From Terrabacter sp. MAHUQ-38 (GTDB taxonomy: Bacteria > Actinomycetota > Actinomycetes > Actinomycetales > Dermatophilaceae): 64,000 bases of DNA. The stretch is from NCBI RefSeq assembly GCF_014518425.1, contig NZ_JACVCU010000003.1, positions 558,001 through 622,000 on the forward strand. Direction: 5' to 3'. The translations under genes and the position numbers were made by a program. A model generated the notes under the pieces. That model ran no database searches and had not been told where the DNA came from. It worked only from the letters and a program-made list of their open reading frames with translations. Every line of letters begins with the position of its first letter. The first letter of the stretch is position 1. Positions 2,286-51,800 of the stretch are shown here, in pieces.

Positions 2286-3173
2286 TCAGCCGGTGATCTG
2301 GGCCGCGAGGTCGCCGCCTCGGGCGACCCGGTCGAGCACCTCGTCGGCCGTCAACTGGACGAGCTCTCCGCCCTCGGCACCCGACTCGATCTCGTCCCAC
2401 GACCGGGGTGCGGCGACCGTCGGGGCCTGCCGCCCCCGCAGCGAGTACGGGCAGACCGTCGTCTTCGCGGCGACGTTCTGGCTCCAGTCGAGGAAGATCT
2501 TGCCGGGCCGCAGCTCCTTGGCCATCTTCCAGACGATGAGGTCGGGGTGCTGCTTCGTGAGCTCCTGCGCGAGCTGCTGCACGGTGTCGCGGATCTCGTC
2601 GCTCGTGTGGGTCCCTGGCAGGACGGCATACAGCTGGAGGCCCTTGCTGCCGCTCGTCACGGGGACGGTGTCGAGTCCGATGCGCCCCAGGCGTTCCCGC
2701 ACGATGAGCGCGACGCGGGCGCACTCGGTGAGCCCCGTGCCCGGTCCGGGGTCGAGGTCGATGACGAGCCGGTCGGGACCCAGCGCCTCCGCATCGCGCC
2801 CCTCACCCGTGTAGCGCCACTGGTGGACGTGCAGCTCGAGGGAGTTGAGGTTGGCGAAGTAGGTGAGCCCGGCGAGGTCGTCGATGAGCGGGAAGACCGG
2901 GTCGCGGCCGGCGCGTCGGATCCAGGACGGGGTGCCCGCAGGGATGTTCTTCTCGAAGAACTGCATGTCACCGACCCCGTGCGGGAAGCGGATTCGCGTG
3001 ACGGCCCGGTCGCGCAGGTGCGGCAGGATCACGGGTGCGATGCGGGCGTAGTAGTCGATGACCTGCGCCTTCGTCGTGCCGGTGGCGGGGTACATGACCT
3101 TCTCGAGGCTCGACAGCTTCATCCGGCGGCCGTCGACCTCGACCGTGACCTTCGGCGCCTCGAAGGGCATCAC
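2286..3173 (-). CDS. ligD: LigD-type NHEJ polymerase (primase-polymerase) domain protein
   Basis: A stand-alone copy of the LigD polymerase domain, an archaeo-eukaryotic-primase fold enzyme that fills in ends during non-homologous end joining. It has 295 residues. The metal motif VIDLDPG carries the two catalytic aspartates, and the nucleotide-binding motif reads TSGSKGLQLYA. In family members I know, this motif normally has His where this protein has Gln (SGxKGLH), which is worth noting. The gene starts GTG (3173) or the next ATG (3170); the ligase stop gives a TGATG junction, so the two are translationally coupled. No phosphoesterase domain is present. The Ku partner is divergent just beyond the ligase. 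Confidence 0.92.
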   Translation of the reverse strand: MMPFEAPKVTVEVDGRRMKLSSLEKVMYPATGTTKAQVIDYYARIAPVILPHLRDRAVTRIRFPHGVGDMQFFEKNIPAGTPSWIRRAGRDPVFPLIDDLAGLTYFANLNSLELHVHQWRYTGEGRDAEALGPDRLVIDLDPGPGTGLTECARVALIVRERLGRIGLDTVPVTSGSKGLQLYAVLPGTHTSDEIRDTVQQLAQELTKQHPDLIVWKMAKELRPGKIFLDWSQNVAAKTTVCPYSLRGRQAPTVAAPRSWDEIESGAEGGELVQLTADEVLDRVARGGDLAAQITG

Positions 3174-4117
3174 TCACCGTCCCCGTGGTCGTCGACGTCA
3201 CCGGGTGTGAGGTCGCTGCGCAGGCCCTTGTATGCCGGCTGCCGCAGTCTGCCCTGTCCGCTGAGCCCCAGCGACTGGACATCGGCGACGAGCACCGGGT
3301 GCACCCACGTGGCGCCATTGGCATCTTCGGCCGGAACGTCTGCGGCGAAAGGGGATTCGGCCGAGATCAAGGCCTCGAGGTCACGCATGAGCGCCTGTCC
3401 GGTCTTGCCGGCGAGCCCCGACCCGACGCGTCCGAGGTAGCGCAGGCCGCCTGGTCCGGGCACGCCGACGAGCACGGAGCCCAGTCGCCGTGAGACCGTG
3501 CCGGTTGCCTCCGGGCGCCACCCGCCGATGACGACCGAGATGGTGCCGCGGTGCGGCGACTTGAGCCAGTGGGGCGAACGCAGGCCCGGGACGTAGGGCG
3601 AGTCGACGCGCTTGGACACGATCCCCTCGAGGCCCTGCTCCCTCGTGGCGGCGTGCAGCGAGGCGCCGTCCGTGAACGTCGGAGGGGTCTGCCAGCGGCG
3701 CCCTCCCAGCTCCAGCCGCTCCAGCGTCGAGCGCCGGTCGGTCCACGAGCGCGAGCAGAGGTCGACGCCGTAGAGGCGGAGCAGGTCGAAGGTCATGAGC
3801 GTCACGGGTGCCTGCTCGGCGAGCAGGCCCGCCCGTCTGGGGTCGGTGACGTGGAACCGCTCCGCCATCGCGGCGAAGGACGGCACGCCGTCTCGGAGCG
3901 ACACGATCTCGCCGTCCACGAGCATGTCGGCGTACTCGTCGGCCAGCCCGCGCAGCTCGGGAAAGGCGACGGTGACGTCGCGCTCGGTGCGCGAGAAGAG
4001 CCGCATCGCGCCGTCGCAGACGTCGGCCAGGACGCGCATCCCGTCCCATTTCACCTCGTGCTGCCAGCGGTCGCCGACAGGAATGGTCGACGTTGGCGTC
4101 GCGAGCATGGGGCGCAT
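3170..4117 (-). CDS. ATP-dependent DNA ligase (LigD ligase domain / LigC type)
   Basis: It seals nicks with ATP and is the final step of NHEJ here. The adenylation motif HEVKWDGMRVL near residue 22 supplies the catalytic lysine (KxDG). Further adenylation-domain motifs include VDGEIVSL and EGIVSKR, and an OB-fold C-terminal half begins around GTISVVIGG. Length is 315 residues, the usual size of a stand-alone ligase domain. The ATG at 4117 (MRPMLA) is chosen because it begins just before the conserved fold; the reading frame continues open upstream without homology. Only 18 bp separate this start from the divergent ku start, so one or both messages may lack a leader. Confidence 0.93.
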   Translation of the reverse strand: MRPMLATPTSTIPVGDRWQHEVKWDGMRVLADVCDGAMRLFSRTERDVTVAFPELRGLADEYADMLVDGEIVSLRDGVPSFAAMAERFHVTDPRRAGLLAEQAPVTLMTFDLLRLYGVDLCSRSWTDRRSTLERLELGGRRWQTPPTFTDGASLHAATREQGLEGIVSKRVDSPYVPGLRSPHWLKSPHRGTISVVIGGWRPEATGTVSRRLGSVLVGVPGPGGLRYLGRVGSGLAGKTGQALMRDLEALISAESPFAADVPAEDANGATWVHPVLVADVQSLGLSGQGRLRQPAYKGLRSDLTPGDVDDHGDGE

Positions 4118-4135
4118 GGGTGCATTCTTGTTCTC

Positions 4136-5089
4136 ATGCGAGCCATCTGGAAAGGCGCCGTGTCGTTCGGCCTCGTCAATGTGCCGGTCCGACTGTTTTC
4201 GGCCACGGAGAACCACGACGTTCAGTTCCGGCAGGTCCACGAGAAGGACGGTGGCCGTATCAAGTACCAGCGCGTCTGCTCGATCGACGGCGAGGAGGTG
4301 CCCTACTCCGACATCGCCAAGGGCTACGAGGCCGCCGACGGGCAGATGGTCGTGCTGACCGACGAGGACCTGAAGAGCCTGCCCTCGCGGTCGTCGAAGG
4401 AGATCTCGATCGAGAAGTTCGTGCCGTCCGAGCAGATCGACCCCCTGCTCTTCGACAAGAGCTACTACCTCGAGCCCGACAAGACCGGCCTGAAGCCCTA
4501 CGTGCTCCTGCGCGACGCCCTCGAGAAGGCCGACCGGATGGCTCTCGTCACGGTGTCGGTGCGCACGCGCATGACCCTCGCGGTGTTGCGGGTGCGGGAG
4601 GGCGTCATCGTGCTCCAGACGCTGCTCTGGGCTGACGAGGTGCGCAGGCCCGAGTTCGAGTCGCTGTCCGAGGACACCCACGCCACGTCGAAGGAGCTGG
4701 CGATGGCGGCCTCGCTCGTCGACTCGCTGTCCGGTGACTACGAGCCCGAAGAGTTCGAGGACGACTACTCCGAGGCGGTCACGCAGCTCGTCGCGACGAA
4801 GATCGAGGGCGGCGACATCACGGAGACGCCCGAGGCCAAGGGCGAGGAGACCGAGGTCGTCGACCTGCTCGCGGCCCTGCAGCGCAGCGTCGACAAGGCC
4901 AAGGCCGCCAAGACGGGCGGCTCGTCCGACTCCGGCGAGTCCAGTGACTCGGGAGCCGCCGCGTCCTCGGCCGAGAAGTCGACATCGAAGACCGCGGCGA
5001 AGAAGACGACGACCAAGAAGGCCGCCGCGAAGAAGACGACCGCCAAGAAGTCGACGACGAAGAAGGCGTCCGCGAAGAAGGCAAGCTGA
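4136..5089 (+). CDS. ku: Ku, NHEJ DNA end-binding protein
   Basis: Bacterial Ku forms a homodimeric ring on broken DNA ends and recruits the ligase and polymerase encoded next door. The canonical start MRAIWKGAVSFGLVNVPV fixes the ATG at 4136. The Ku core runs to about residue 255. A C-terminal tail from about residue 265 is built of Ser/Asp then Lys/Ala/Thr repeats (AAKKTTTKKAAAKK type). Such lysine tails in actinobacterial Ku bind DNA and modulate threading. Length is 317 residues. The divergent layout with the ligase and polymerase genes forms a complete two-component NHEJ locus lacking only a phosphoesterase domain. Confidence 0.97.
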   Translation: MRAIWKGAVSFGLVNVPVRLFSATENHDVQFRQVHEKDGGRIKYQRVCSIDGEEVPYSDIAKGYEAADGQMVVLTDEDLKSLPSRSSKEISIEKFVPSEQIDPLLFDKSYYLEPDKTGLKPYVLLRDALEKADRMALVTVSVRTRMTLAVLRVREGVIVLQTLLWADEVRRPEFESLSEDTHATSKELAMAASLVDSLSGDYEPEEFEDDYSEAVTQLVATKIEGGDITETPEAKGEETEVVDLLAALQRSVDKAKAAKTGGSSDSGESSDSGAAASSAEKSTSKTAAKKTTTKKAAAKKTTAKKSTTKKASAKKAS

Positions 5090-5201
5090 CCGAGTCGGGC
5101 CCAAGCTTGGGGCAGGCGTCGCGCGCACACCGCGGGCGACCTGCGTCACCTCACACGGCATACGGCCTCGGGAGGGGCCCGCGTCGCGCGAGGATGAGCA
5201 G

Positions 5202-6428: not shown

Positions 6429-6508
6429 CCGGGCACGTATGCCGTCCGGCTCCCGCCGCGGCCGGCCCGCCGTCAGTGCGACGCCCGTTCGCCCGCAACA
6501 CACCGGGC

Positions 6509-6582: not shown

Positions 6583-7380
6583 TCAGATGCGGCTGGCGCC
6601 CCGGGTCGGCACGAGGGCCAGCCGGGCGAAGGCGAGCGCCTCGACGAGGTCGAGCTCGCGCTGGTCCCGACCGGACTTGCGGGTCGAGACCTCGACGACG
6701 ACGTCGCCGCTCCATCCGCTGTCGGCCAGGTGCTCGAGGACCTCGGCGCACGGCTGGGTGCCGCGCCCCGGCACGAGGTGCTCGTCGAGGAACGAGCCGA
6801 GGCCGTCGGCGAGATGCAGGTGCGCGAGCCGTGGCCCCAGCGCCTGCGCCATGGCGAGCGCGTCGGAGCCTGCGGTCGCCGTGTGCGACAGGTCGAGCGT
6901 CACGTTGTCGTAGGGCTGGTCGACCGGGTCCCAGTGGGGCGAGTACGCCATGACGTCTCGGCGAGCCGTCCGCCACGGGTACATGTTCTCGACGGCGAGC
7001 CGGAGCCCCGACTCGTGCTCACGGTGCGCCACGCCGTCGGCGAACTCGGCGGCATACTCCCGCTGCCAGCGGAACGGCGGGTGCAGCACGACGGTGCCCG
7101 CACCCACTTCGAGGGCGAGGTCGAGGGAGCGGTCGATCTTGCCCCACGGGTCGGTGCCCAGGACTCGCTGGGTGAGCAGCAGCGTGGGGGCGTGGACCGA
7201 GGCGATCGGCAGCTCGTGCAGCTCGGACAGCGCCCGCAACGCACCGGGCTCCTGCGTGACCGGGTCGGTCCACACCATGACCTCGATCGCGTCGTAGCCG
7301 AGCCGCGCAGCGGTGGCGAAGGCGGTCGCTGCGTTGCCCGGGTAGAGCGAGGAGGTCGAGAGGCCGACCCGGATCGTCAT
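6583..7380 (-). CDS. Sugar phosphate isomerase/epimerase-like TIM-barrel protein
   Basis: A 265-residue protein of the xylose-isomerase-like (AP endonuclease 2) TIM-barrel superfamily. Typical strands include IRVGLSTSSLYP at the N-terminus, YDAIEVMVW, ASVHAPTLLL, VVLHPPF, LAVENMYP, VTLDLSHTA and RLAHLHLADG, ending with a V-x-V-E-V-S strand. Glu, Asp and His residues in these strands match the metal-binding positions of the superfamily. The ATG at 7380 begins immediately before the first strand. It lies 72 bp downstream of ppx and may be cotranscribed with it. The substrate is unknown. Confidence 0.85.
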   Translation of the reverse strand: MTIRVGLSTSSLYPGNAATAFATAARLGYDAIEVMVWTDPVTQEPGALRALSELHELPIASVHAPTLLLTQRVLGTDPWGKIDRSLDLALEVGAGTVVLHPPFRWQREYAAEFADGVAHREHESGLRLAVENMYPWRTARRDVMAYSPHWDPVDQPYDNVTLDLSHTATAGSDALAMAQALGPRLAHLHLADGLGSFLDEHLVPGRGTQPCAEVLEHLADSGWSGDVVVEVSTRKSGRDQRELDLVEALAFARLALVPTRGASRI

Positions 7381-7452: not shown

Positions 7453-8382
7453 TCAGGTCATCAGGTGGTCGAGACGCCGCAGGATGAGGCCCTCGCGCAG
7501 CGCCCACGGGCAGATCTCGATCTGCTCGACCTGGAGCAGGTCGAGGGCCGCCTCCGCGACGAGCGCGCCGGCATACAGCTGGTGGGCGCGGCCGACGGAC
7601 ACGCCGGGTAGCCCTGCTCGCGCGGCGGAGTCGAGGCGGGCGAGTCGCGCCACGATGCCGCGAAGGTCGCCACGCGTGAGCGAACGGCGCACGAACGGCC
7701 CGTCGTCGCGCGGAGCCGCCCCGGCGATCCGCGCGAGGGAGCGCATCGTCTTCGACGTGCCGACCGCACGGTCGGGCACGCCTGACCTCAGCAGCGGGCG
7801 CACCTGCTCGGCGAGCGTCGCGCGCACATAGGAGCGCACCTCGCGTGCCGCGGCCTCGGTGGGCGGGTCCTCGGGCAGGCGCTCGCGGGTCAGGCGCCCG
7901 GCACCGAGCGGCAGGCTGAGCGCGACGTCCGGCTCCTCGTCGAGGCCCGCGGCGAGCTCGAGCGACCCACCGCCGATGTCGACGACGAGCAGCCGGCCGC
8001 TCGACCACCCGAACCAGCGGCGCACCGCGAGGAAGGTCATGCGGGCCTCGTCACGACCACTCAGCGCCTCGAGCTCGATGCCCGTCTCGTCGCGGACCCG
8101 GCCGATGACCTCCTCGCCGTTGGGCGACTCGCGCAAGGCGGAGGTCGCGAAGGCGAAGAGGTCGCTGACGCCCTGGTCCTCGGCCACCACGAGGCATTCA
8201 CGCAGGAACGCGATGAGCCGGTCAGCCGTCTCGTGGCCCACCCGGCCGTCGGTGCCGAGGCTCTCGGAGAGACGCAGCTCGGTCTTGTGCGAGAAGGCCG
8301 GCAGTGGCTGCGCGCCGGGGTGCGCGTCGACGACGAGGAGGTGGACCGTGTTCGACCCGATGTCGATGACGCCCAGACGCAT
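7453..8382 (-). CDS. Ppx/GppA family exopolyphosphatase / pppGpp phosphatase
   Basis: It hydrolyses inorganic polyphosphate and/or pppGpp. The actin-like ATPase fold is recognisable from the N-terminal phosphate loop [13 protein letters not shown], the central FATSALRES, and the second phosphate loop [11 protein letters not shown] near residue 135. At 309 residues it is the short actinobacterial form, lacking the extra C-terminal domains of E. coli Ppx. The start is ATG at 8382. The sequence cannot decide between the two activities. Confidence 0.92.
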
Positions 8383-8465: not shown

Positions 8466-9200
8466 TCAGGCGGAGCGGCGGCTCAGCGTCAGTGAGGCGA
8501 GTGCGAGGGCGACGGCGATGAAGCCCGCGACGATGCCGAGGTCGGTGAGCACCGCGGTGACGGGGTCGGCGTTGCGGGCGATCTCCTTCATGGCGTCGAC
8601 GGCGTAGGACAGGGGCAGCACGTCCGAGAGCCACTCGAGGACGGTCGGCAGCTGGTCGCGCGGCGTGAGCAGTCCACAGAGCAGGAACTGCGGCAGCACG
8701 AATGCCGGCATGAACTGGACCGCCTGGAACTCGGTGCGCGCGAATCCGCTTGCGAGCAGGCCGAGCGCGGTGCCGAGTACGGCGTCGAACACCGCGACGA
8801 CGATGAGGAGCCAGAGCGGACCGGCGACGTCGAGGTCGCAGATCCAGACCGCGAATCCCGTTGCCACGAGCGCCTGTGCGACGGCGAGCGCACCGAAGGC
8901 GACGGCATACCCGAGCATGAAGTCACCCTTGCCCATGGGCGTCGTCAGGAGCCGCTCGAGCGTGCCCGACTGGCGCTCACGAAGGGTCGCGACGGAGGTG
9001 ACGATGAACATGACGATCATCGGGAACACGCCGAGCAGGGCGGGCCCGATCGCGTCGAAGACCGGTGTGCCGTCATAGATCCAGGCGAGCAGGCCGAGCA
9101 GCACGCACGGCACGATGATGATGAGGCCGATGGTGCGGTGGTCGGTGCGCACCTGGCGCAGGACGCGGCCCGACGTCGCGGCGGTGAGTCCGGCGTTCAC
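8466..9200 (-). CDS. ABC-2 type transporter permease
   Basis: An integral membrane export permease of 244 residues with about six transmembrane spans, starting with [15 protein letters not shown]. The segment [19 protein letters not shown] is the ABC-2 family signature between spans 2 and 3. It pairs with the ATPase just upstream. The GTG start at 9200 overlaps the ATPase stop by four bases (GTGA), with GGAG upstream. Together with the TetR gene the order is regulator-ATPase-permease on one strand, typical of drug or lipid exporters. The substrate is not deducible. Confidence 0.9.
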
Positions 9201-9957: not shown

Positions 9958-9959
9958 AT

Positions 9960-10574: not shown

Positions 10575-10712
10575 GGGGACACCGTATGCCGCCGGACCTG
10601 TCCCCGGCCCCATCCGCAGATCGTTGACGGGCCGATCGCGCCGTCCGACAATCGAGATGTCCGGTCCGCCAAGGATCGACGGACCCGCAATTGAAAGAGG
10701 GTCGATCGCACC

Positions 10713-11281: not shown

Positions 11282-11397
11282 AGGCTGGTGCCGGCATACC
11301 CGGGACCGCTCGCCGGGATCCTCTGGGCCCCCGGCACACCATCCACGAGTTGGGCGCCGTTGACGACACGGAAACCTCGGCGGCATAAGGTGAACCG

Positions 11398-12225: not shown

Positions 12226-12914
12226 TGAGCCAGGTCATCCCGTCGCCGAACATCTGGGAGACGCCCGACGTCTACGAGGTCGAGAACCGCGGCGTCGACC
12301 GCGCGCACGTCATCGAGGACGCGATGCGCTCGGTGCTCGACTGGTCTGGGCTCGACGTCGTCGACATCGGCTGCGGCACCGGCTACCACCTGCCGTACTT
12401 GGCGCAGAACGCCCGGTCGGTGCTCGGCGTCGAGCCGCACCCGCCGCTGGCTTCCCTTGCCGCACAACGCGTCTCGGGTATGCCGTCCGTCTCCGTCCGA
12501 GAGGAGGGTGCGGCCGCGATCGGGGTGCCTGACGCCGCGTTCGACATGGCCCACGCCCGGTGGGCGTACTTCTTCGGGCCGGGCAGCGAGCCGGGTCTGG
12601 CCGAGCTCGACCGGGTCATGCGCCCGGGTGGGGTGGCGTTCGTCATCGACAACGACGCGACGCGCTCGACGTTCGGCACGTGGTTCCGGCGGGCCCTGCC
12701 GAGCTATGACCCCCGCGCCGTGGAGCGCTTCTGGGAACGGCAGGGCTGGCAGCGCGAGCGCCTCGACATCCGTTGGGACTTCGACTCGCGCGAGGACTTC
12801 GAGGCCGTCGTCGGCATCGAGTTCGCGCCCGACCACGCCGACCTCATCCTCGCCGAGCACCCCGACGCCACGGGCGTCGACTACGCCGTCAACCTCTGGT
12901 ACCGCCGCTACTGA
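12225..12914 (+). CDS. Class I SAM-dependent methyltransferase
   Basis: A 229-residue Rossmann-fold methyltransferase. Motif I is VVDIGCGTGYH (about residues 45-55), followed by the acidic SAM-ribose residue in GVEPHP and by the methyltransferase-11-like post-motifs FDMAHARWAYFF and LAELDRVMRPGGVAFVID. The C-terminal part (WDFDSREDFEAVVGIEF) resembles ubiquinone/small-molecule methyltransferases. It overlaps the upstream cysteine-rich gene by one base, indicating a two-gene operon. The substrate is unknown. Confidence 0.88.
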   Translation: MSQVIPSPNIWETPDVYEVENRGVDRAHVIEDAMRSVLDWSGLDVVDIGCGTGYHLPYLAQNARSVLGVEPHPPLASLAAQRVSGMPSVSVREEGAAAIGVPDAAFDMAHARWAYFFGPGSEPGLAELDRVMRPGGVAFVIDNDATRSTFGTWFRRALPSYDPRAVERFWERQGWQRERLDIRWDFDSREDFEAVVGIEFAPDHADLILAEHPDATGVDYAVNLWYRRY

Positions 12915-13079: not shown

Positions 13080-14207
13080 ATGGACATCAGCGAGACCATC
13101 GAGACGGTCATCATCGGCGCGGGGCAGGCCGGTCTGGCCACGGCACGCGAGCTCGTGAGCCGTGGCCATGCGTGCGTCGTGCTCGAGCGCAACGAGGCCG
13201 TCGGCGACGGCTGGCGCCAGCAGTACGACTCGCTGCGCCTCTACTCGCCGGCCCGCCACGACAGCCTTCCGGGCCTGCCGTTCCCCGGCGACCCGAAGTC
13301 GTTCCCCGGCAAGGAGGAGGTGGCGGCCTATCTGGGGTCGTATGCCGCCCACTTCCGGCTGCCGGTGCGGCTCGGTGTCCGGGTGCAGCGACTCGCGGCG
13401 GCGCCGGCCGGCGACGGGTTCGTCATCGAGACCGACCGCGGACTCATCGCGTGCCGCAACGTCGTCGTCGCGACCGGCACGTTCGGTCGGGCGCCGAGGG
13501 TGCCGGACCTCGCTGCGGACCTCGACCCGTCGATCCTCCAGCTGCACTCGAGCGAGTACCGGCGGCCGAGCCAGCTGCGCGACGGCTCGGTGCTCGTCGT
13601 GGGAGCCTCGCACTCCGGCTGCGACATCGCGTACGAGCTGGCCCAGACGCGGCCGACGATCCTCGCGGGCCGCGACTGCGGGCAGATCCCTGTGCGATGG
13701 GACTCGCCGGCGATCCACGTCGTCTTCCCGTTCCTGCTCTTCGCCTGGCGCCACGTGATGACCCGGAGGACGCCGGTGGGTCGCGGGATGATGGAGGAGA
13801 TCCGTCACCACGGCGGCCCGATGCTTCGGGTCAAGCGCGAGGACCTCGCGGCACGCGGGGTCGAGCGCCACACCCAGCGCGTCGTCGGAGTCACGGACGG
13901 GCTCCCGAGGCTCGACGACGGCACGGTCGTCGACGCCGCCAACGTCATCTGGGCGACCGGCTTCACCCAGCGCTTCGACTGGATCGACCTGCCGGTCGTC
14001 GGTGACGACGGCTGGCCGCGCGAGTACCGCGGGGTCTCTCAGGACGTGCCGGGGCTCTTCTTCTGCGGCCTCGCGTTCCAGTACGCGTTCGCCTCGATGG
14101 TGCTGCCCGGCGTCGGTCGCGACGCGGCGTACGTCGCCGAGCACGTGGTCCGGCGGTCGGCGAAGCAGCGCACCCGTTCCGACTCGACGGCGCCGGCTCC
14201 CGCCTGA
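13080..14207 (+). CDS. Flavin-containing monooxygenase / NAD(P)-binding oxidoreductase
   Basis: A 375-residue FAD- and NAD(P)-dependent oxidoreductase of the CzcO/TrkA-like flavoprotein group. The FAD fingerprint is TVIIGAGQAGLATARELVSR at residues 10-29; the second dinucleotide motif is VLVVGASHSGCDIAYEL. The ATG-type motif VVVATGTFGR and IWATGFTQRFDW also match. A strong AGGAGGG precedes the ATG at 13080. The convergent gene downstream encodes a large LuxR regulator. This pairing recurs in actinobacteria in my memory, suggesting the regulator controls it. Substrate unknown. Confidence 0.9.
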   Translation: MDISETIETVIIGAGQAGLATARELVSRGHACVVLERNEAVGDGWRQQYDSLRLYSPARHDSLPGLPFPGDPKSFPGKEEVAAYLGSYAAHFRLPVRLGVRVQRLAAAPAGDGFVIETDRGLIACRNVVVATGTFGRAPRVPDLAADLDPSILQLHSSEYRRPSQLRDGSVLVVGASHSGCDIAYELAQTRPTILAGRDCGQIPVRWDSPAIHVVFPFLLFAWRHVMTRRTPVGRGMMEEIRHHGGPMLRVKREDLAARGVERHTQRVVGVTDGLPRLDDGTVVDAANVIWATGFTQRFDWIDLPVVGDDGWPREYRGVSQDVPGLFFCGLAFQYAFASMVLPGVGRDAAYVAEHVVRRSAKQRTRSDSTAPAPA

Positions 14208-18573: not shown

Positions 18574-18585
18574 ACGGCTGGCCTC

Positions 18586-22993: not shown

Positions 22994-23104
22994 CGTCCCT
23001 CCTCCGTCGGACCGGGTGCTCGCCTGCCCACTCTGCCGCACGGACGACCCGGCCGCGCGCTGCCCGGATCGGACCGCCGGCCACCGACACGGCATACTCG
23101 GGGA

Positions 23105-30118: not shown

Positions 30119-30368
30119 GCTCGTCCGGTGAGTTTGTCCACCGGCACAACGTCCGGCGAACTACCAGTGTTCCGCATGCGCGGCGCCCGTGACCAACCAG
30201 CCTGCGCCCCGTTCCACGCACCGGGCACACCCTCCGTATGCCGTCAGGCGAGCCTGCGCGCCCGATAACCGGTTGCCGGGCTCCCCTGCGACTTGCTGCA
30301 CTGGACCCGTCGGCCACCAGGTCGACACCGCCGTCCCGGCAGACGCCCAGAGGAGAGAGGAGAGCCGG

Positions 30369-38704: not shown

Positions 38705-38726
38705 TCCACAGCCGTATGCCGTGAGC

Positions 38727-38824: not shown

Positions 38825-40321
38825 TCAGCCGAGGTCCGCGGCCTCGACGCCCGCCACGGTCTCGCGGTCCGGCTCGTCCCGCCGGGTCGCCCCGCGCTCC
38901 GGCCCGCGACGCGGACGCAGCACCAGCGCCGCCACCCCGAGCGCGACGAGCGTGAAGGTCGCCGACGTGAAGAAGGCCGGCTCGACCCCCGGCACGAACT
39001 GGCCCGGCACCGCCTGCGAGGCGTACACGCTGACGATGGCCGCGAGGCCGACCGCGCCGCCCAGCTGCTGCGCGGTCTGGAGCAGCCCCGAGACCGTGCC
39101 GGCCTGGGCCCGCTCGACACCGCTGAGCACGACGACGGTGACCGGCATGAAGACGAGCGCGGCCGAGACCCCGTTGAGCATGAGCGCACCGAGGAGGTGG
39201 GCGGCATACGTGCTCGTCGTCGAGATGCCGCTCAGCCACACGAAGCTCGCGGTGAGGCCCAGCGTGCCGACGAGCATGAGGGGCCGCGGACCCACCTTGG
39301 CGACGAGGCGCGCGCTGACCCGCGAGGTCGCGAAGATCGCGAGGCTGAGCGGGAGGAACGCGGCGCCCGTGGCGACGGGACTGAATCCGAGGACGAGCTG
39401 CAGGTACTGCGTGACGAGGAAGAAGGTCGAGAACTGGGCGCCGACGACGAGCGCCATCAGGACGAGTGCTCCGGCACGTGAGCGGTCCCGGACCAGGGCC
39501 AGCGGCAGGAGCGGCGACGCGACGCGGCTCTCGGTGCGGACGAACGACGCGAGGAGAAGGGCACCGGCGGCGAACGAGGCGAGCGTCAGCGGCGCGGACC
39601 AGCCGCGCTCCGCGGCGCTGATGAAGCCGTGGACGATCGCTACGGACCCGAGAGTCGCGGTGACGGCGCCGACGACGTCGAAGCGACCGCGCACACGCGG
39701 AGTCTCGGCGACGAAACGGCGGGCCAGGACGAGCACGACGGCACCGATGGGCACGTTCACGAAGAGCGTCCAGTGCCAGCTGACGAAGTCGGTGAGGACG
39801 CCGCCGAGAAGCAGGCCGATGGACGCACCGGCCGAGGACACGGCGGTGAAGAGGGCCAGCCCGCGGTTTCGGGCCGCCTCGTTCGGAGCGCTCGTCGTGA
39901 CGAGGGCGAGCACGCCGGGTGCCGCGAGCGCGGCACCGACGCCCTGGAGCGTGCGGGCGGCGACGAGCCAGCCCGGTGTCGTGGCGAGACCTCCGAGCAG
40001 GCTCGCAACGGTGAAGACCCCGAGACCGATCTCGAAGCTGCGGAGCCGTCCCAGGACGTCACCGAGGCGTCCGCCGAGGAGCAGGAGGCCGCCGAAGGCG
40101 AGGGTGTAGGCGTTGAGCACCCACGACAGTCCGGCCGGCGAGAACCCGAGGTCGGTCTGGATGTGCGGGAGCGCGACGTTCACGACGGTGGCGTCGAGCA
40201 CGAGCATGAGCTGGGCCACGAGCACGATGCCGACGCCGATCGCCGCGCGTCGGGCGGCGCGGTCTGGCGTGGGTGCGGCGGTGGGTGCGGCGGTTGGTGG
40301 TGTGGTGGTGCTGGTCGACAT
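38825..40321 (-). CDS. MFS drug efflux transporter, DHA2 (EmrB/QacA) type
   Basis: A 498-residue proton-coupled exporter with about 14 membrane spans. Motif D1 appears as LDATVVNVALPHIQTDLGFS and motif A as LLLLGGRLGDVLGRLR after span 2. Motif C-like GASIGLLLGGVLTDFVSWHW is in span 5. These define the DHA2 drug:H+ antiporter family. The ATG at 40321 has GAGG upstream. A TetR gene lies divergently 315 bp away with a perfect palindrome between, so local repression is likely. A small ORF precedes it by eight bases. Confidence 0.93.
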   Translation of the reverse strand: MSTSTTTPPTAAPTAAPTPDRAARRAAIGVGIVLVAQLMLVLDATVVNVALPHIQTDLGFSPAGLSWVLNAYTLAFGGLLLLGGRLGDVLGRLRSFEIGLGVFTVASLLGGLATTPGWLVAARTLQGVGAALAAPGVLALVTTSAPNEAARNRGLALFTAVSSAGASIGLLLGGVLTDFVSWHWTLFVNVPIGAVVLVLARRFVAETPRVRGRFDVVGAVTATLGSVAIVHGFISAAERGWSAPLTLASFAAGALLLASFVRTESRVASPLLPLALVRDRSRAGALVLMALVVGAQFSTFFLVTQYLQLVLGFSPVATGAAFLPLSLAIFATSRVSARLVAKVGPRPLMLVGTLGLTASFVWLSGISTTSTYAAHLLGALMLNGVSAALVFMPVTVVVLSGVERAQAGTVSGLLQTAQQLGGAVGLAAIVSVYASQAVPGQFVPGVEPAFFTSATFTLVALGVAALVLRPRRGPERGATRRDEPDRETVAGVEAADLG

Positions 40322-41846: not shown

Positions 41847-43069
41847 CCACCCTCATGTGGCGCCAACCCAAGACTGTCTGGTCGATCGCCTTCGCCTGCG
41901 TGATCTCGTTCATGGGCATCGGCCTCGTCGACCCCATCCTCAAGCCCATCGCCGACGAGCTCGGCGCCGGCCCGTCACAGGTCTCGCTCCTCTTCACGAG
42001 CTACCTCGCGGTCATGGGCGTCGCGATGCTCGGCACCGGCTGGGTGAGCAGCCGGGTCGGCGCCAAGCGGACCCTGCTGCTCGGCCTGGCGCTCATCATC
42101 GTCGGCTCCGCGTTCGCGGGCAGCCAGGACACCGTCGCCGGAATCGTCGCCTTCCGTGCCCTCTGGGGGCTGGGCAACGCGCTCTTCATCGCCACCGCCC
42201 TCGCGACGATCGTCAATGCCGCGAGCGGCTCGGTGAAGCAGGCGATCATCCTGTACGAAGCCGCACTCGGTGTCGGCATCGCCACCGGTCCCCTGGTCGG
42301 CGGCTGGCTCGGGGGCATCTCGTGGCGCTGGCCCTTCTACGGCGTCGCCGTCCTCATGGCCGTCGCCTTCACCGCCACGGCGACGACGTTGCCGAGGACG
42401 CCACGCGCCGACAGCCCGACCTCGATCAGCGCTCCACTGCGCGCCCTCGGCCACCGCGGCCTGCTCACCGTCGGCGTCACCGCACTGCTCTACAACTTCG
42501 GCTTCTTCACGCTGCTCGCCTTCACCCCGTTCCCGCTCGCGATGGGAGCCCATGACATCGGCTTCATCTTCTTCGGTTGGGGAGTGCTCCTCGCCATCAG
42601 CTCCGTCTTCGTGGCGCCGCTCGTCCAGCGCCGGGTCGGCACCCTGGCCGGCGTCGTCGGAGCGTTGCTCGGCTTCGCCGTGATCCTCGCCGTCATGGCG
42701 GTCGGCACCGAGAACAAGACCGTGCTCGTCGTCGGCGTCATCCTCGCCGGTGCGTTCCTCGGCGTCAACAACACCCTCATCACCGAGACCGTCATGAAGG
42801 TCGCGCCGGTCGAGCGCGGCGTCGCGTCGGCGGCATACAGCTTCGTCCGCTTCAGTGGCGGCGCCGTCGCGCCATGGCTCGCCGGCACCCTCGGTGAGCG
42901 GTCGACCCACCTGCCGTTCTGGGTCGGGTCGGGCGCGGTCGTGCTGGCGGTCGTCGTGCTGCTGACGGCGCGTCGCATCATCGGGTCGCTCGACGCGGCC
43001 CCGGACCACGGCGCTGATCCCGTCGCCTCGAGGGCCGAGGCCGAGGCCCTCACCGTCGGCGACGCCTGA
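41843..43069 (+). CDS. MFS transporter, DHA1-like
   Basis: A 408-residue transporter with 12 predicted spans. SIAFACVISFMGIGLVDPIL is span 1, and GTGWVSSRVGAKRTLLLGLA is motif A after span 2. YEAALGVGIATGPLVGGWLG is motif C in span 5, the antiporter hallmark. ITETVMKVAPVERGVASAAY marks the second half. It follows the MarR gene with a four-base overlap; MarR control of drug efflux is the likely theme. The substrate is unknown. Confidence 0.92.
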   Translation: MTTLMWRQPKTVWSIAFACVISFMGIGLVDPILKPIADELGAGPSQVSLLFTSYLAVMGVAMLGTGWVSSRVGAKRTLLLGLALIIVGSAFAGSQDTVAGIVAFRALWGLGNALFIATALATIVNAASGSVKQAIILYEAALGVGIATGPLVGGWLGGISWRWPFYGVAVLMAVAFTATATTLPRTPRADSPTSISAPLRALGHRGLLTVGVTALLYNFGFFTLLAFTPFPLAMGAHDIGFIFFGWGVLLAISSVFVAPLVQRRVGTLAGVVGALLGFAVILAVMAVGTENKTVLVVGVILAGAFLGVNNTLITETVMKVAPVERGVASAAYSFVRFSGGAVAPWLAGTLGERSTHLPFWVGSGAVVLAVVVLLTARRIIGSLDAAPDHGADPVASRAEAEALTVGDA

Positions 43070-43270: not shown

Positions 43271-43333
43271 GACCTCCTGCGCCCCTGACGCCTCACGGCC
43301 CCACCCCGAAGCGGTATGCCGTGTGCCGCGGGG

Positions 43334-44665
43334 TCAGTGGAAGGTGACCGACGAGCCCGCCTGCATCGCGGCATACGCCTCGGGGTCCGCCTCGAGCATC
43401 GCCCGGCGCGCCCGGCGGCGGTAGCGCAGCACCTGCACGATGCCGAGCGCCCAGACCGGGTACTGCACGGCCATCGCGGCCCGGAACGCGTCGACGTCCC
43501 ACGTCGACGGGCCGGCCGGTGCGACCCGGTCGAGCACGACGCCGACGAGCGCCACGGCAGTGAGCGTCGCGACGAAGCCGCCGGTGTTGACGATGCCCGA
43601 CGCGCTGCCGATGCGGGTCGGCGGGTTGAAGGTGCGCGCGACGTCGAAGCCGATCATCGACCCCGGGCCGCCGATCGCGATGAGCACGACGAGGGCGACG
43701 AGCAGCCACAGCGGCGCCCGACCCGGCCACAGCAGCACGACGGTCCACGCGACGATGGCCGCGGCGACGATCCACAGCACCAGCGTGCTGCGCGAGAACG
43801 GGTAGCGCATCGTCAGCGTGCCGATGACCGGGCTCGAGATGACCGTCGTGACGACCATGACCATGAGCATGACGCTGGCCGTGCCAGGCGACAGCCCCTG
43901 GCCGGCGACGAGGAACGGGAAGCCCCAGAGCATCGTGAACATGTTGGCGGCGAACTGGGACGTGAAGTGGGTCCACAGGCCGAGCCGCGTGCCGGGCACG
44001 AGCCACGCCGCCCGCAGGGTGCGGGCGATGGCCCGCAGCCGCAGCTCGTCGCGGTGGTGGTCGGTGTACGGGCTGTCGCGCACGACGAGGACGAGCGCGA
44101 CGCCGGTGAGGATGCCGAGGGACGCGGCGACGGCATACGACGGCGTCCACCCGAAACGGTCGAGTGCGGCGGCGAGCGGCCCAGCGGCGGCGAGCGCACC
44201 GATCTGCCCGAGCACCCCCGTCAGCTGCGTCACCATCGGAGTGCGCCGCGGCGAGAACCACACGGCGACGAGACGCAGCACCGAGATGAACACCATCGCG
44301 TCGCCCATGCCGAGCAGCACCCGGCAGACGAGCGCGGCCGGGAACGAGTGGACGAAGGCGAAGCCGAACTGTGCTGCCGTGACAAGGGTCAGGCCGACGC
44401 CGAGCAGCCGCTTGCTGCCGTAGCGGTCGAGCAGCGCGCCGACGGGCAGCTGCATGGCGGCGTACACGAACAGCTGGACGATCGTGAAGGTCGACAGCTG
44501 CGCGCTGCTGATGCCGAAGCGCTCGGCCGCCTCCAGACCGGCCACACCGAGCGAGGTGCGGTGGAAGACGGCGAGGACGTAGACGCCGATCGCCGCCACC
44601 CAGACCGCCCGGGCGCGACGTCCGTCGAGGGCGAAGCGTTGGCCAGGCTGGGTGGTGCTCGTCAT
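43334..44665 (-). CDS. MFS transporter, ACS/nitrate-sugar-phosphate-like
   Basis: A 443-residue, 12-span transporter. VYVLAVFHRTSLGVAGLEAA begins span 1. QLPVGALLDRYGSKRLLGVG is motif A, and LLGMGDAMVFISVLRLVAVW with SPRRTPMVTQLTGVLGQIGA follows, the pattern of ACS/NNP-like carriers rather than drug antiporters. The second half contains NPPTRIGSASGIVNTGGFVA. It sits beside malic enzyme on the same strand (16-bp gap), so uptake of an organic acid is possible but unproven. Confidence 0.88.
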   Translation of the reverse strand: MTSTTQPGQRFALDGRRARAVWVAAIGVYVLAVFHRTSLGVAGLEAAERFGISSAQLSTFTIVQLFVYAAMQLPVGALLDRYGSKRLLGVGLTLVTAAQFGFAFVHSFPAALVCRVLLGMGDAMVFISVLRLVAVWFSPRRTPMVTQLTGVLGQIGALAAAGPLAAALDRFGWTPSYAVAASLGILTGVALVLVVRDSPYTDHHRDELRLRAIARTLRAAWLVPGTRLGLWTHFTSQFAANMFTMLWGFPFLVAGQGLSPGTASVMLMVMVVTTVISSPVIGTLTMRYPFSRSTLVLWIVAAAIVAWTVVLLWPGRAPLWLLVALVVLIAIGGPGSMIGFDVARTFNPPTRIGSASGIVNTGGFVATLTAVALVGVVLDRVAPAGPSTWDVDAFRAAMAVQYPVWALGIVQVLRYRRRARRAMLEADPEAYAAMQAGSSVTFH

Positions 44666-46373: not shown

Positions 46374-47612
46374 GTGTCCCCCATCGACTCGTACCGTCAC
46401 CTCTTCGGCCTGACCGGCCGCACGTACATCGTCGTCGCCTTCCTCGCCCGGATGCCGCTGGCGATGAGCCAGCTCGGCGTCCTCCTGCTCGTGTCGGACG
46501 CGACGGGCAGCTTCGGTGCCGGCGGCTTCTGCGCCGGCGCGCTGGCCCTGGCGAACGCCGTCGGCGCACCCTTCTGGGGCGCGCGGGCCGACCGCCTGGG
46601 GCAGCGACGAGTCGTGGCCTTCCAGTCCCTGGCCGGGGCGGCCGGCCTCCTCGGCATCCTCCTCGTCGCCGGGGCCCACCTCCCGTGGGGGGCGGCCGCG
46701 GTCGCGAGCGCCGTCGCCGGGGTGCTGCTGCCGCAGATCGGTCCGCTGGCCCGGGTGCGCTGGCGGCCGATCACGGCCGGCTCGGGCAGCCGTCAGCACC
46801 GGCTCGTCGACGCCGCCTTCTCGTACGAGGGCGCGGCCGACGAGGCGTCCTTCGTGCTCGGGCCGGCGCTCATCGGGCTCGGGGTCTCGGCCGCGAGCCC
46901 CACGGTCGCCCTGGCCCTCGCCGCGACTGGCCTGGCAGTCTTCGGCACGTGGTTCGCGCTGCACGAGACGGCCACCGTCACGCACGCGGCGACCATCCAG
47001 TCATCCGGCGACGTCGGCCGGCTGCTCACGCCGGCGCTCGTCGTGCTCTGCCTCGCGCAGCTGCTGGTCGGCAGCGTCTTCGGCTCCGTGCAGACCGGTA
47101 CGTCGGTCCTCGCGACCACGGCCGGCTCCCCCGGGCTCACCGGCTACTTCCATGCACTGCTGGGGGTGGGCAGCGTCATCGCCGGGCTCGCGGTCGCCGC
47201 GCTACCTGCGTCGATCTCGCTTCCGGCGCGGCTGCGCTGGTTCGCCGCCGGCCTGCTCGTGCTGTCTGCGCCCCTGCTGGTCGTGGGTTCGCTGGCCGCA
47301 CTCGTCCCGGTGCTGCTCGTCCTCGGCTGCACCGTCGCGCCGTACATGATCACGACCTTCACGCTCGCGGAGCGGGTCACCCCGGCGTCGCGCACGGGCG
47401 CCGCGATGACGGTCCTCGCCGCCGCGACCGGCCTCGGCTACGCCGTCGGTGCAGCAGCCGCCGGACGGCTGGCCGACTGGGGCGGCCATACCCCGGCGTA
47501 TGCCGTCACCGTCGGCGCCGGTGTCGCCGCGGTCGTCGTGTCGTGGGGGTGCGGCCGCGTCCTCACCCGGGCGAGCACCGAGCCGTCCGCCGAGCAGGTC
47601 CCGACCCCCTGA
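46374..47612 (+). CDS. MFS transporter
   Basis: A 412-residue membrane protein with 12 spans. It opens SPIDSYRHLFGLTGRTYIVV and has GAPFWGARADRLGQRRVVAF as motif A after span 2. A central loop has FSYEGAADEASFVLGPALIG, a feature of an actinobacterial MFS subgroup with otherwise unknown cargo. The GTG at 46374 has GGAG eight bases upstream. It is divergent from malic enzyme across a 252-bp gap in which I saw no other gene. Confidence 0.88.
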   Translation: MSPIDSYRHLFGLTGRTYIVVAFLARMPLAMSQLGVLLLVSDATGSFGAGGFCAGALALANAVGAPFWGARADRLGQRRVVAFQSLAGAAGLLGILLVAGAHLPWGAAAVASAVAGVLLPQIGPLARVRWRPITAGSGSRQHRLVDAAFSYEGAADEASFVLGPALIGLGVSAASPTVALALAATGLAVFGTWFALHETATVTHAATIQSSGDVGRLLTPALVVLCLAQLLVGSVFGSVQTGTSVLATTAGSPGLTGYFHALLGVGSVIAGLAVAALPASISLPARLRWFAAGLLVLSAPLLVVGSLAALVPVLLVLGCTVAPYMITTFTLAERVTPASRTGAAMTVLAAATGLGYAVGAAAAGRLADWGGHTPAYAVTVGAGVAAVVVSWGCGRVLTRASTEPSAEQVPTP

Positions 47613-48194: not shown

Positions 48195-48411
48195 GGGAGG
48201 TCGACGACGGCGGACGCCAGGAGCGGCTCGGCACAGGTCACGCGAACCACTGTGCCAGAGCGTGTGCGCGACATGCTGCGAGACGGTGCTTGTCATCCGC
48301 CCGGCGGGACGGTTTGATCCTCCCGACCCTTCAGGCCTCGCCACGGCGCGCGAGCCGACCGGGCGGCTGGAAACTTATGGCACATATTTCGCGAAACCGC
48401 ATACAGCGGGG

Positions 48412-48525: not shown

Positions 48526-48540
48526 CTCGGGCAACCGTCC

Positions 48541-48909: not shown

Positions 48910-49317
48910 CTAACGGGTCACCACCAGCACGACGACCAGCGCGGTGACCGCCACCCAGGCGGCATACGCGCCGCCGGCGATCGCCCTGGGAGGCACCCGC
49001 CGCCCCCGCAGCTTCACGACGGTGGCGGCAGGGGTGAGGTTGAACCACGTGACGGCGTGGAGCACGAGGAAGGCCAGCGTGAGGACGTCGAGCGCCACGA
49101 CCCAGGGGCCGGCCGCCCAGTCGAGGAAGGCGCGGAACTGTGCCTCGCCCTGGGCGAGCGCGCGGACCAGGAGGAGCAGGAAGACCACGGACCACGCCAC
49201 GAAGATGCTGCTGAGCTCGCGCAGCACGAAGAACACGTAGCTGCGACGACGCAGCCACCACAGCCGGCTGATCTCGGGGCGGTAGGGCCGCTGGGTCTGC
49301 TGGGCCGGCTCGCTCAT
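48910..49317 (-). CDS. frdC: Fumarate reductase subunit C
   Basis: The other membrane anchor, 135 residues. [20 protein letters not shown] is the typical FrdC beginning. Three spans follow, with [20 protein letters not shown] containing the conserved histidine near the quinone site. The ATG at 49317 overlaps the frdB stop (ATGA). FrdC/FrdD pairs are heme-free in E. coli, and the same is expected here. Confidence 0.92.
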
Positions 49318-50057
49318 CGAGGCCCCCGCGGGAGGACGAACGACTTCAGGGACTGCAGGGCGGCAGTGAGCTTGTACCGCTGGATGGCTCCGGCCGGGTC
49401 GACACCCTTCGGGCAGGCGCGGGTGCACTCGCCGACGAACGTGCACCCCCAGATGCCCTCGGGGTGGATGAGCAGGTCCATCCGGACGTCGGCGCCCTCG
49501 TCGCGCGAGTCGAGGTTGTAGCGCTGGGCGAGGGCGATGGCGGCCGGACCGACGAATTCCGGGTCCAGCCCGTAGACGGGGCAGGCGGAGTAGCACAGCA
49601 TGCAGTTGATGCACATGCTGAACTGCGAGTAGTCGGCGAGCTGCTCCGGCGTCTGCAGGTACTCGCCCTCCTCGACCGACGTCCCCTCGCCGCGCACGAT
49701 CCACGGGCTCACCTCGGGCAGCTTGCGCATGAAGTCCCCGATGTCGACGACGAGGTCGCGGATGACGGGGAAGTTGGCCAGCGGCTCGACGCGGACCGGT
49801 CCCGGCGCGTAGTCCACGAGGAACGTCGCACACGTCAGCCGAGGCTCGCCGTTGACGGTCATGCCGCAGCTCCCGCAGATGCCCATCCGGCACGACCACC
49901 GGTAGGACAGGCTCCCGTCGAGGTTGTCCTTCACGTGGTTCAGGCCGTCGAGCACCGCCCAGTCCCGGCGCAACGGGACCTCGAACGCCTCGACGGTCGG
50001 CTCGGTCTCGCGGTCCGGGCGGTACCGCGCCACCTCGAGCGTGATCGTGTCAGCCAT
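49314..50057 (-). CDS. frdB: Fumarate reductase iron-sulfur subunit
   Basis: It relays electrons from quinol to the flavin. The [2Fe-2S] ligands lie in [12 protein letters not shown] plus the later Cys of LTCATF. The ferredoxin-like half has [12 protein letters not shown] and [17 protein letters not shown] for the [4Fe-4S] and [3Fe-4S] clusters. Length is 247 residues. The gene follows frdA by three bases and overlaps frdC. Confidence 0.96.
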
Positions 50058-50060
50058 CGC

Positions 50061-51800
50061 TCACCTCCCATAGACCCGTTCTCCGGGCGGCCATCGGGTG
50101 ACGGTCACCGGCAGGTACTCGACCTTGTGCGCGCCTGTCTCGTCACGGTGGACCAGTGAGTGGGCGAGGTAGCTCTCGTCGTCGCGGGCCGGGAAGTCCA
50201 GCCGTTGGTGCGCCCCCCGGGACTCCTCGCGCCTCAGGGCGGCGGCGATGATCGCCTCGGCCACGTCGAGCATGTTCGACAGCTCGAGGGCCGCGAGGAC
50301 CTGGGTGTTGAACGCACGGCTGTGGTCGTCGACGGCCATCGACTCCGACCGCTCCTGCAGCTCTCGCAACCTCGCTGCACCCCCGAGGAGGGACTCCTCG
50401 GTGCGGAAGATCCCGGCGCTGTCCTCCATCGCCTGCTGCATGCCGGTCCGCAGGCCCGCGATCGACTCGCGGCCGTCCGTGCGGTCCCTGAGCCCACTCG
50501 TGAGGCGACGCTCCTCGTCGCGGGCCAGGGCGGCCACGGACGGTCCGGGGTCGGCTGCCCCTGCGGCATACAGGGCGGCTGCGCGGCCGGCACGGGCCCC
50601 GAAGACCAGGCACTCGGGGAGGGAGTTGGAGCCCAGGCGGTTGGCCCCGTTGATGCTGACGCAGGCAACCTCGCCAGCGGCGTACAGGCCGGCCAACGGC
50701 GTCGCTCCGTCGATGTCGGTGTGGACCCCGCCCATCATGTAGTGCACCACCGGGCGCACCGGCACCAGCTCGCGCACCGGGTCCAGGTTCTCGTACTTGA
50801 GGCAGAGCTCGCGCACGAAGGGCAGCTTGTCGTCGATGAGCTTCGCGCCCAGGTGCCGCAGGTCGAGGTGCACGACCGGGCCGTACGGCGTGCCGATGGT
50901 CCGGCCCTTCTCCTCCTCGTGCACGAACGCCTGCGAGAGGCGGTCACGGGGGCCGAGCTCCATGCTGCGCAGCTCCGGCTCGGGGGTCGGCTTCCCGAGG
51001 TCGTAGTCCTGCAGGTAGCGGTAGCCGTCCTTGTTGAGCAGCCAGCCGCCCTCGGCGCGTGCGGCCTCGGTGATGAGGATGCCGGTGAACGGCAGGCCCG
51101 TCGGGTGGTACTGCACGAACTCCATGTCCTTGAGCGGCACCCCGGCACGCCACGCGAGGGCCATGCCGTCACCGGTGTTGATGTTGGCGTTGGTGGTGAA
51201 CGGGAAGACGCGCCCACAGCCGCCGCCCGCGAGGATGACCGCCTTGGCGGTGATCGGGGCGATGCGGCCCGTGGCCAGCTCGAGGGCGACGACACCCTGC
51301 ACCCGGCCGTCGTCGACGAGCAGCTGGGTGACGAACCACTCGTCGTACCGAGCCACCTCGGAGTACTTGAGCGACGTCTGGAACAGCGTGTGCAGCATGT
51401 GGAAGCCGGTCTTGTCGGCCGCGAACCAGGTCCGCTTCTTCTTCATGCCGCCGAACGCGCGCACCGCGATGTGGCCGTCCGGTTGCCGGCTCCACGGGCA
51501 GCCCCAGTGCTCGAGCTGCAGCAGCTCACGCGGCGCCTCCACCACGAAGGCCTCCACGGCGTCCTGGTCGCACAGCCAGTCGCTGCCCGAGACCGTGTCG
51601 TAGGCGTGCTCCTCGAGGCTGTCGTCGCTCGCGAACGCACCTGCGGCGCCGCCTTCGGCAGAGACCGTGTGGCTGCGCATGGGGTAGACCTTGGACACGA
51701 CCGCGACCCGGAGCGAGGGGTCCAGCTCGGCGATCGCAATGGCCGCCCGCAGGCCCGCAGCTCCGCCTCCGATGACGAGGATGTCGTGGTCGGCGCGCAT
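50061..51800 (-). CDS. frdA: Fumarate reductase flavoprotein subunit
   Basis: The catalytic subunit, 579 residues. The FAD motif [20 protein letters not shown] is at 6-25. The covalent-flavin histidine is expected in the [16 protein letters not shown] segment. [20 protein letters not shown], then [17 protein letters not shown] and [19 protein letters not shown], are active-site signatures. With two separate anchor genes (frdC, frdD) the complex is of the E. coli Frd type, used in anaerobic fumarate respiration or as a low-oxygen succinate dehydrogenase. Confidence 0.95.

Follow-up and report, generated by a model that had tools for sequence, protein, structure and literature searches.

Why should one eight-letter word recur throughout a stretch of an actinobacterial chromosome, on both strands and in genes as well as in gaps? 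The stretch in question, referred to hereafter as the window, is the whole 64,000 nucleotides of Terrabacter sp. MAHUQ-38 that were analysed, and the word is the octamer CGGCATAC, or GTATGCCG when read from the other strand. A first reading, made from the sequence only, had counted 35 copies, and recounting gives exactly that number of exact copies between 2,624 and 50,571 (on the plus strand, 20 read CGGCATAC and 15 read GTATGCCG), far above chance as claimed: 100 dinucleotide shuffles yield a mean of 0.82 (maximum 4), and an order-3 Markov model predicts 1.68. As judged from the comparisons set out below, the exact octamer is upheld at the DNA level, and it has been lost in at least one close relative.

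No 8-mer of the window ranks above the octamer under the order-3 model, and the top 6-, 7-, 9- and 10-mers either lie within it or extend it. A maximum-order model, for which the 7-mers of the octamer itself were used, predicts 34 copies, but solely because these sub-words are hardly found elsewhere; GGCATAC occurs 35 times in the window, every time within the octamer. Gene calls (made with our own codon-model script) bear out the earlier placement of copies in genes of both strands, in gaps and over the nadB start: 25 lie within predicted genes (7 in plus-strand and 18 in minus-strand genes), 9 are intergenic, and the remaining one crosses a gene edge at the predicted nadB (L-aspartate oxidase) start codon at 18,573, with the ATG inside GTATGCCG.

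The abundance extends to the whole genome (5.157 Mb in 18 contigs), and here the background counts that could have overturned the sequence-only reading were not found: there are 2,024 octamers (1,018 forward and 1,006 reverse; 0.39/kb), against 309 for a reversed-word control. A 464-kb part of the genome holds 221 octamers where 13 are expected, and the octamer is the top 8-mer there. Its flanks are weak (A in 47% or G in 33% before it, G in 61% after it) and not A+T-rich, and the 24 single-mismatch words are together raised only mildly (358 vs 290 in 400 kb), so the octamer is sharp. The idea of an old spreading repeat is set aside, since only the eight letters plus these weak flanks are common to the copies, and relatives differ at the sites mostly by point substitutions, often of codon choice.

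Surveying 186 genomes from 53 genera of the family (genomes, genera and loci carry G, g and L numbers), we found at least 100 copies/Mb in 108 genomes (31 genera), fewer than 35/Mb in 62 and densities in between in 16, the highest being 1,356/Mb (1.36/kb) in G201. The 108 motif-rich genomes sum to 101,512 forward and 101,176 reverse copies. Six genera (g6, g21, g26, g52, g54 and g69) mix species above and below 100/Mb, the background-level members G126, G065 and G150 (in g26, g52 and g69) having 19, 37 and 50 copies. An order-wide sample of 396 genomes included 362 from other families, none of which reaches 100/Mb; each has at most 180 copies, or at most ~80/Mb, and control counts in these 362 are of the same order as the octamer counts.

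To follow individual sites, the window was aligned to the corresponding stretches of seven relatives (~80% identity), giving the status of each site as listed here.

2624–2631, plus strand: octamer CGGCATAC, intact in G088
3230–3237, minus strand: octamer, intact in G088
5156–5163, plus strand: octamer, exact match
6437–6444, minus strand: octamer, exact match
7050–7057, plus strand: octamer, intact in G008, G088 and G024
7569–7576, plus strand: octamer, exact match
8903–8910, plus strand: octamer, intact in G002, G008 and G088; CGGCGTAC in G024
10584–10591, minus strand: octamer, exact match
11292–11299, plus strand: octamer, exact match
12478–12485, minus strand: octamer, intact in G002 and G008; CGGCATCC in G024
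13340–13347, minus strand: octamer, intact in G008
18568–18575, plus strand: octamer over the predicted nadB start (gene on the minus strand), intact in G002, G008 and G088
20972–20979, minus strand: octamer, intact in G002, G008 and G088
21697–21704, plus strand: octamer, intact in G002, G008 and G088
23090–23097, plus strand: octamer, the sole site intact in G137
24314–24321, minus strand: octamer, intact in G002 and G008
25639–25646, minus strand: octamer, intact in G002, G008, G088 and G029; CGGCATCC in G137, G024 and G034
30236–30243, minus strand: octamer, intact in G008
31490–31497, plus strand: octamer, exact match
32994–33001, plus strand: octamer, intact in G002, G008, G088, G024 and G029; CGGCGTAG in G137 and G034
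33163–33170, minus strand: octamer, intact in G002, G008 and G088
34672–34679, minus strand: octamer, intact in G088
34747–34754, plus strand: octamer, intact in G008, G088 and G029; CGGCATCC in G024 and G034
36915–36922, minus strand: octamer, exact match
37803–37810, plus strand: octamer; CGGCATCC in G024 and G034
37940–37947, plus strand: octamer, intact in G002, G008 and G088; CGGCGTAC in G024 and G034
38714–38721, minus strand: octamer, intact in G008 and G088
39202–39209, plus strand: octamer, intact in G002, G008, G088 and G029
42831–42838, plus strand: octamer, intact in G088 and G029
43314–43321, minus strand: octamer, first member of an inverted pair 55 bp apart, exact match
43369–43376, plus strand: octamer, second member of the inverted pair, intact in G088
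44131–44138, plus strand: octamer, intact in G002, G008, G088 and G029
47498–47505, minus strand: octamer, intact in G002, G008 and G024; CGGCGTAG in G137
48960–48967, plus strand: octamer, exact match
50564–50571, plus strand: octamer, the last of the window, exact match
50572–64000, no strand: octamer-free stretch of lower G+C, with LacI, sugar ABC transporter and GH65 genes from 56.6 kb

The octamer is intact in place at 18 of 27 sites in G008 (control 0.40, p=0.005) and at 18 of 28 in G088 (control 0.35, p=0.0015). The motif-poor relatives retain 1 of 24 (G137), 0 of 22 (G034) and 3 of 21 (G024). An unrooted 22.5-kb tree groups G137 (assembly 81% complete) with the window's genus and G088 shares sites with that genus, so that G137 has most simply lost its octamers; the lost sites show many differing neighbour words. 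Together with the codon counts given next, these alignments show that selection or drive maintains the octamer sites, acting on the DNA itself; the earlier suggestion of a protein-binding site stands in the sense that something seems to read and keep the exact word there.

A functionless by-product of mutation bias or codon preference would leave its trace in the codons, and a trace of this kind is seen: the 221 sites in the 464 kb comprise 167 coding copies in predicted genes, 51 intergenic ones and 3 on gene edges, and 138 of the 167 fall in just two frames, TAT-GCC (90) and GCA-TAC (48). The earlier description of these codons as rare holds for TAT, 90 of the 197 TAT in the same 464 kb lying within the octamer. 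Yet synonymous codon shuffles within genes (20 shuffles) give a mean of 16 and a maximum of 23 coding sites against the 167 observed, and density is higher between genes (0.742/kb) than in them (0.423/kb), reaching 1.15/kb between convergent neighbours, 0.72 between tandem and 0.48 between divergent ones. Conservation is likewise tied to the octamer and not to the codon: TAT is retained within it at 8 of 11 positions in G002, 9 of 12 in G008 and 9 of 11 in G088, against 0, 1 and 1 of 6 outside it, and GCA within it is retained significantly in G088 only (5/6 vs 12/89 outside). The octamer is also gone in a close relative, G137, in which TAC mostly stands where the octamer has TAT (6/8), as it does in G034 (7/9). 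These counts leave the by-product account highly improbable.

Unsupervised word counts in genomes low in CGGCATAC brought out related words, or dialects: CGCCGTAC in G126, CGGCGTAC in G130 and CGGCATCC in G034 and G024, together with the more distant CCGCATCG in G125, CCCCTTCG in g63 and g67 and, less strongly raised, CCGGCTCC in G014. The first three were borne out when entire genomes were counted. CGGCGTAC numbers 2,111–4,185 per genome in g66, 2,366 in G059, 2,618 in G060, 2,216 in G031, 2,529 in G069 and 1,359 in G032; CGCCGTAC has 3,117 copies in G126; and CGGCATCC has 3,949 in G034, 3,816 in G024, 3,838 in G071, 4,480 in G082 and 2,195 in G084, against 260 to 1,239 in the other 52 of the 57 genomes searched. 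G084 holds two dialects together, its CGGCATCC being accompanied by 1,217 CGGCATAC. No clear word appeared in 40–160 kb samples of g10, g15, g55, g14, g50, g2, G065 and G150. The switch can be seen in place: CGGCGTAC stands in G126 at 4 of 7 alignable CGGCATAC sites of G033, and CGGCATCC stands at 4 of 22 of the window genome's sites in G034 and 4 of 21 in G024, while of the other CGGCNNNN words in these two relatives 3 of 744 and 3 of 586 have CGGCATAC as their aligned counterpart. As far as the aligned letters tell, the octamer is replaced in relatives by related words, partly at the same positions, and sites that stay put while their letters follow the dialect point to a reader whose specificity has changed.

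Two further observations concern these words. The CCCCTTCG shared by g63 and g67 is over-represented at 54 vs 9.7 and 45 vs 6.8 (L047–L051, L195–L197, L171, L182), and may be a far dialect or another system. In G126 (L021–L030, L167, L177), CGBCGTAC words overlap as dyads, CGBCGTACGVCG, at 40 vs 9 expected.

Dialects also bear on a methylation motif of the kind known from the cyanobacterial HIP1 (highly iterated palindrome), in which a methyltransferase would read the word and a methylation-linked repair bias would create and keep it. HIP1, like the octamer, saturates genomes and is lost in some lineages or replaced by alternate words, there with matching methyltransferases (PMC4390886). HIP1 is a palindrome tied to methyltransferases, however, whereas CGGCATAC is non-palindromic and varies letter by letter, with dialects that differ by single letters and share positions; a one-word bias would moreover feed from one neighbour, and the lost sites of G137 show many. 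We regard such a motif as unlikely. Separately, the palindrome GACGCGTC is raised in G137 (L143–L145, L164, L175; 52 places/100 kb vs 17 expected at order 3) and could represent another signal or a word of the HIP kind.

The sequence-only reading had seen no strand bias, which holds globally but not locally. Besides the near-equal genome totals, sites divide evenly against GC skew, our proxy for the replication strand (94:91 in the window's own genome, and 91:86, 20:19, 41:39 and 34:33 in four relatives with their own words), and a polar skew toward the terminus of the KOPS (FtsK-orienting polar sequence) type is not seen, in agreement with that reading. Like-oriented neighbours are nonetheless scarce within ~1 kb: consecutive CGGCATAC closer than 1 kb are opposed rather than alike by 60:22 in the own genome and 36:7 in G178. 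Pooled over seven CGGCATAC genomes (whose loci overlap in ancestry, the own genome and G178 being the independent tests), the ratio is 20:6 at 8–120 bp, 57:15 at 121–500 bp and 78:26 at 501–1,000 bp, then 76:55 at 1–2 kb, 66:54 at 2–4 kb and 22:25 beyond. Across the window's genus, G088 and G029, alike pairs closer than 1.5 kb reach 0.2–0.6 of expectation and opposed pairs 0.7–1.6; the avoidance is weak in G034 plus G024 (44:24, p=0.02). Six of seven control words lack an excess of opposed neighbours, and the seventh, ATGCCGTC, which has one (54:32), overlaps the octamer. Among close pairs (8–60 bp, pooled over nine genomes and two dialects), 16 of 23 are GTATGCCG...CGGCATAC, that is reverse–forward, or the CGGCATCC equivalent, where a quarter would be 5.75. 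Opposed orientation prevails even for pairs within one gene (23:10 and 18:5), and with most sites lying in genes a terminator function alone is rejected. The avoidance of like-oriented sites within ~1 kb suggests a reader that works in one direction from the site.

A reader of this kind is also what a Chi-like recombination signal would call for, and we consider this the main rival, doubtful though with a real chance of being right: a helicase-nuclease (AdnAB, AddAB or another) would read one orientation and switch from degradation to repair, and both orientations would be needed, since a two-ended break is processed both ways. Escherichia coli Chi (GCTGGTGG) has the length of the octamer, and the two are alike in being exact, in being scarce in the foreign DNA examined (for the octamer, mobile elements) and in that direction matters locally; the octamer is non-palindromic, and alike sites that avoid each other within ~1 kb while opposed ones do not are what a polar end-processing signal predicts. 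Known Chi sites are, however, biased to one replication strand, while the octamer has no strand bias against GC skew; it is denser than Chi, and its dialects change within genera. It is also present without RecC, the Chi-reading subunit of RecBCD, a match to which was found in the own genome and in none of the genus's 8 remaining genomes, each of which bears the motif (one is 74% complete); RecBCD is on this account an unlikely reader, and over the family RecC is matched in 47 of 108 motif-rich against 36 of 62 motif-poor genomes.

Sites thin out in stretches of low G+C and in mobile elements, so that the equal density in islands which would have spoken against the first reading is not what is seen: the 14 five-kb bins below 68% G+C hold 12 sites, and the other 86 bins hold 223. 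Of the 20-kb bins of contig 1, the three of G+C <0.68 hold 7 sites and the other 17 hold 179, a 4.5-fold difference. Two large site-free gaps in contig 1 contain an IS110 transposase and a Prim-Pol/DUF3987/phage-type integrase element; in a third, at 114.8–127.6 kb, no mobile gene was recognised from sequence starts, no search having been made. The integrated element at L004:8002–14647 is free of octamers; besides genes for Prim-Pol, DUF3987 and a phage-type integrase it has a weak FtsK-like match. The empty right end of the window is confirmed, with zero octamers in 50,572–64,000, although the ~10 copies earlier expected there, from the window's density, become about 5 at the genome's mean density. 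G+C over this stretch is lowered (0.646–0.706 per 2 kb), and from ~56.6 kb (56647–64000) it carries a cluster for carbohydrate use (LacI regulator, sugar ABC transporter and GH65 enzyme) that is probably acquired DNA.

An intracellular reader is conceivable too, acting on a site for chromosome architecture (raised also from the sequence alone) or for a nucleoid protein. In its favour, the word is found in every spaced sample of G126 and G033, with 20-kb counts near Poisson (variance/mean 0.84 and 1.05); upkeep of the octamer at the DNA level would suit it as well. Near-Poisson counts are not general, however (1.91 in G130 and 2.16 in G178), and neither orientation-specific avoidance nor a change of dialect within a genus is expected of such sites. 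The octamer is ~10 times as dense as motifs with a known architectural role, matS and Noc sites among them, and densities of up to 1,356/Mb, together with dialects, fit a signal of the uptake or recombination type better. We therefore do not favour an architecture site, and give it a low probability.

The reading that we favour, on the combined analysis, is that CGGCATAC is a self-DNA signal, kept dense on both strands by a sequence-specific, direction-sensitive reader in natural transformation, and we put its chance of being correct at about even. Density, symmetry, the intergenic and convergent excess, inverted pairs, island scarcity, dialects and losses match reported uptake sequences; over-representation, absence of a chromosomal orientation bias, higher intergenic density, inverted pairs, dialects and scarcity in acquired DNA, each a feature of the DNA uptake sequence (DUS) and the uptake signal sequence (USS), are found for the octamer. 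In Neisseriaceae, whose DUS the minor pilin ComP reads, dialects, counts and distribution run parallel to those of the octamer: the DUS likewise has thousands of copies per genome and is more abundant than any other word, its dialects differ by one letter from relative to relative and can occur two to a genome, its sites include overlapping dyads (those of G126 resemble the dyads of the S. muelleri DUS dialect) and inverted pairs, and some members of the family have none (PMC3630211). The octamer differs from the 10–12-letter DUS in its eight letters, its actinobacterial host (PilM being matched in few genomes, as given below) and its local orientation avoidance. It resembles the USS of Pasteurellaceae in a density of ~1/kb, lack of orientation bias, intergenic preference and close opposed pairs (PMC1626085), and in that one orientation is commoner in genes (PMC2346458), here 107 vs 60; it differs in sequence, in lacking A+T-rich flanks and in that a Pasteurellaceae-type trend of orientation with position inside genes is not significant (p=0.11 pooled). 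As an aside, the octamer plus its commonest flank, GTATGCCGTC, contains ATGCCGTC, the first eight letters of the 12-letter Neisseria DUS (PMC2346458), probably by coincidence, because other genera use other flanks.

Under the favoured self-DNA signal, a putative reader would act in natural transformation, such that DNA with the local dialect would be taken up, or imported as one strand via the Flp (Tad) pilus and ComEA–ComEC, and recombined in preference. Every recombination would spread the word, sites would build up where genes tolerate them, a changed reader specificity would re-write the sites into a new dialect, and loss of the reader would let them decay. One site per orientation per kb would suffice, a second alike adding little. 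That the whole family marks its DNA in this manner, by a direction-sensitive self-signal with one site per orientation per kb and dialects that switch within genera, is a more tentative proposal, which we place somewhat below an even chance. The own genome possesses ComEA (SLBB + HHH_3), ComEC and a Flp/Tad cluster, and transformation of another actinobacterium, Micrococcus luteus, needs comEC and two tad loci (PMC4322843), in a paper that uses neither of the terms ‘uptake sequence’ and ‘sequence-specific’.

Several results weigh against uptake as the function, the step from a watermark to uptake being one that we infer. ComEC is matched in 180 of 186 family genomes, motif-bearing or not, and the six without a match (G070, G096, G158, G165, G202 and G205, all incomplete or fragmented) bear the octamer. 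The T2SSE ATPase is matched in 185 of 186, with counts that overlap between motif-bearing and motif-free genera, and only marginally in G014, which has a possible weak word of its own; the type IVa pilus protein PilM is matched in 7 of 186; and G137, its sites lost, retains comEA, comEC and the Tad cluster. Neither ComEC, PilM, T2SSE nor RecC separates motif-bearing from motif-free genomes, and an explanation by the gain or lack of any one of these genes is rejected. Haemophilus uptake is independent of site orientation (PMC1939737), so a receptor that simply binds the site would not lead one to expect avoidance between like-oriented neighbours; the polar reader to which the orientation effect points would also be explained by a Chi-like signal. 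Like-orientation avoidance is not seen in G033 (opposite 13, same 25), G126, G130 or G125, nor for the g63/g67 word, and spacing overall is no more regular than chance (coefficient of variation 1.23, a value inflated by islands). Conservation is without significance in G002 (13/26) and G029 (6/16; controls 0.33–0.42 over four relatives), and a second tree (15.8 kb) departs from the first, with G137 nested in the window's genus and G029 next to G000. G190 (g2), classed as motif-free, has CGGCATCC mildly raised (54 vs 16.6 in 160 kb; 1,210 vs 280 for the control in the whole genome). Finally, CGGCGTAC and CGCCGTAC also recur often outside the family, in four loci from Nocardioides or Pimelobacter (L063, L064, L066 and L068, with 10–17 CGGCGTAC in 14–21 kb each); a word related to CGGCGTAC may reach beyond the family, or codon context may be at work, and part of the CGGCGTAC/CGCCGTAC dialect count may be codon context.

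Were the self-DNA signal confirmed, it would be the first sequence-specific uptake signal outside Gram-negatives, with a polar reading known for neither DUS nor Chi. As a third, independent case, in a Gram-positive family whose dialects span many genera and in which close relatives differ by losses, it would provide a natural experiment for asking why recognition of self-DNA evolves and in what way a receptor changes along with thousands of sites. A search for the reader is made direct by the dialect pairs (G126/G033; G034 and G024 vs the window's genus; G137), and orientation-specific spacing is a new handle on the direction of DNA reading. In the literature consulted, uptake sequences are regarded as characteristic of Neisseriaceae and Pasteurellaceae; the open-licence literature searched reports no uptake-type signal for Actinobacteria, Intrasporangiaceae, Intrasporangium or Terrabacter, and the letters CGGCATAC appear in it in one paper, which concerns Ralstonia typing.

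Two minor features of the surveyed loci complete the observations. L047–L051 also carry a tandem-like ACGGACCC repeat, and G207 (L201–L202) has short repeated words of the CGCACCTA/AGTAGGTG and AGCGTTAG types, which are probably dispersed repeats.

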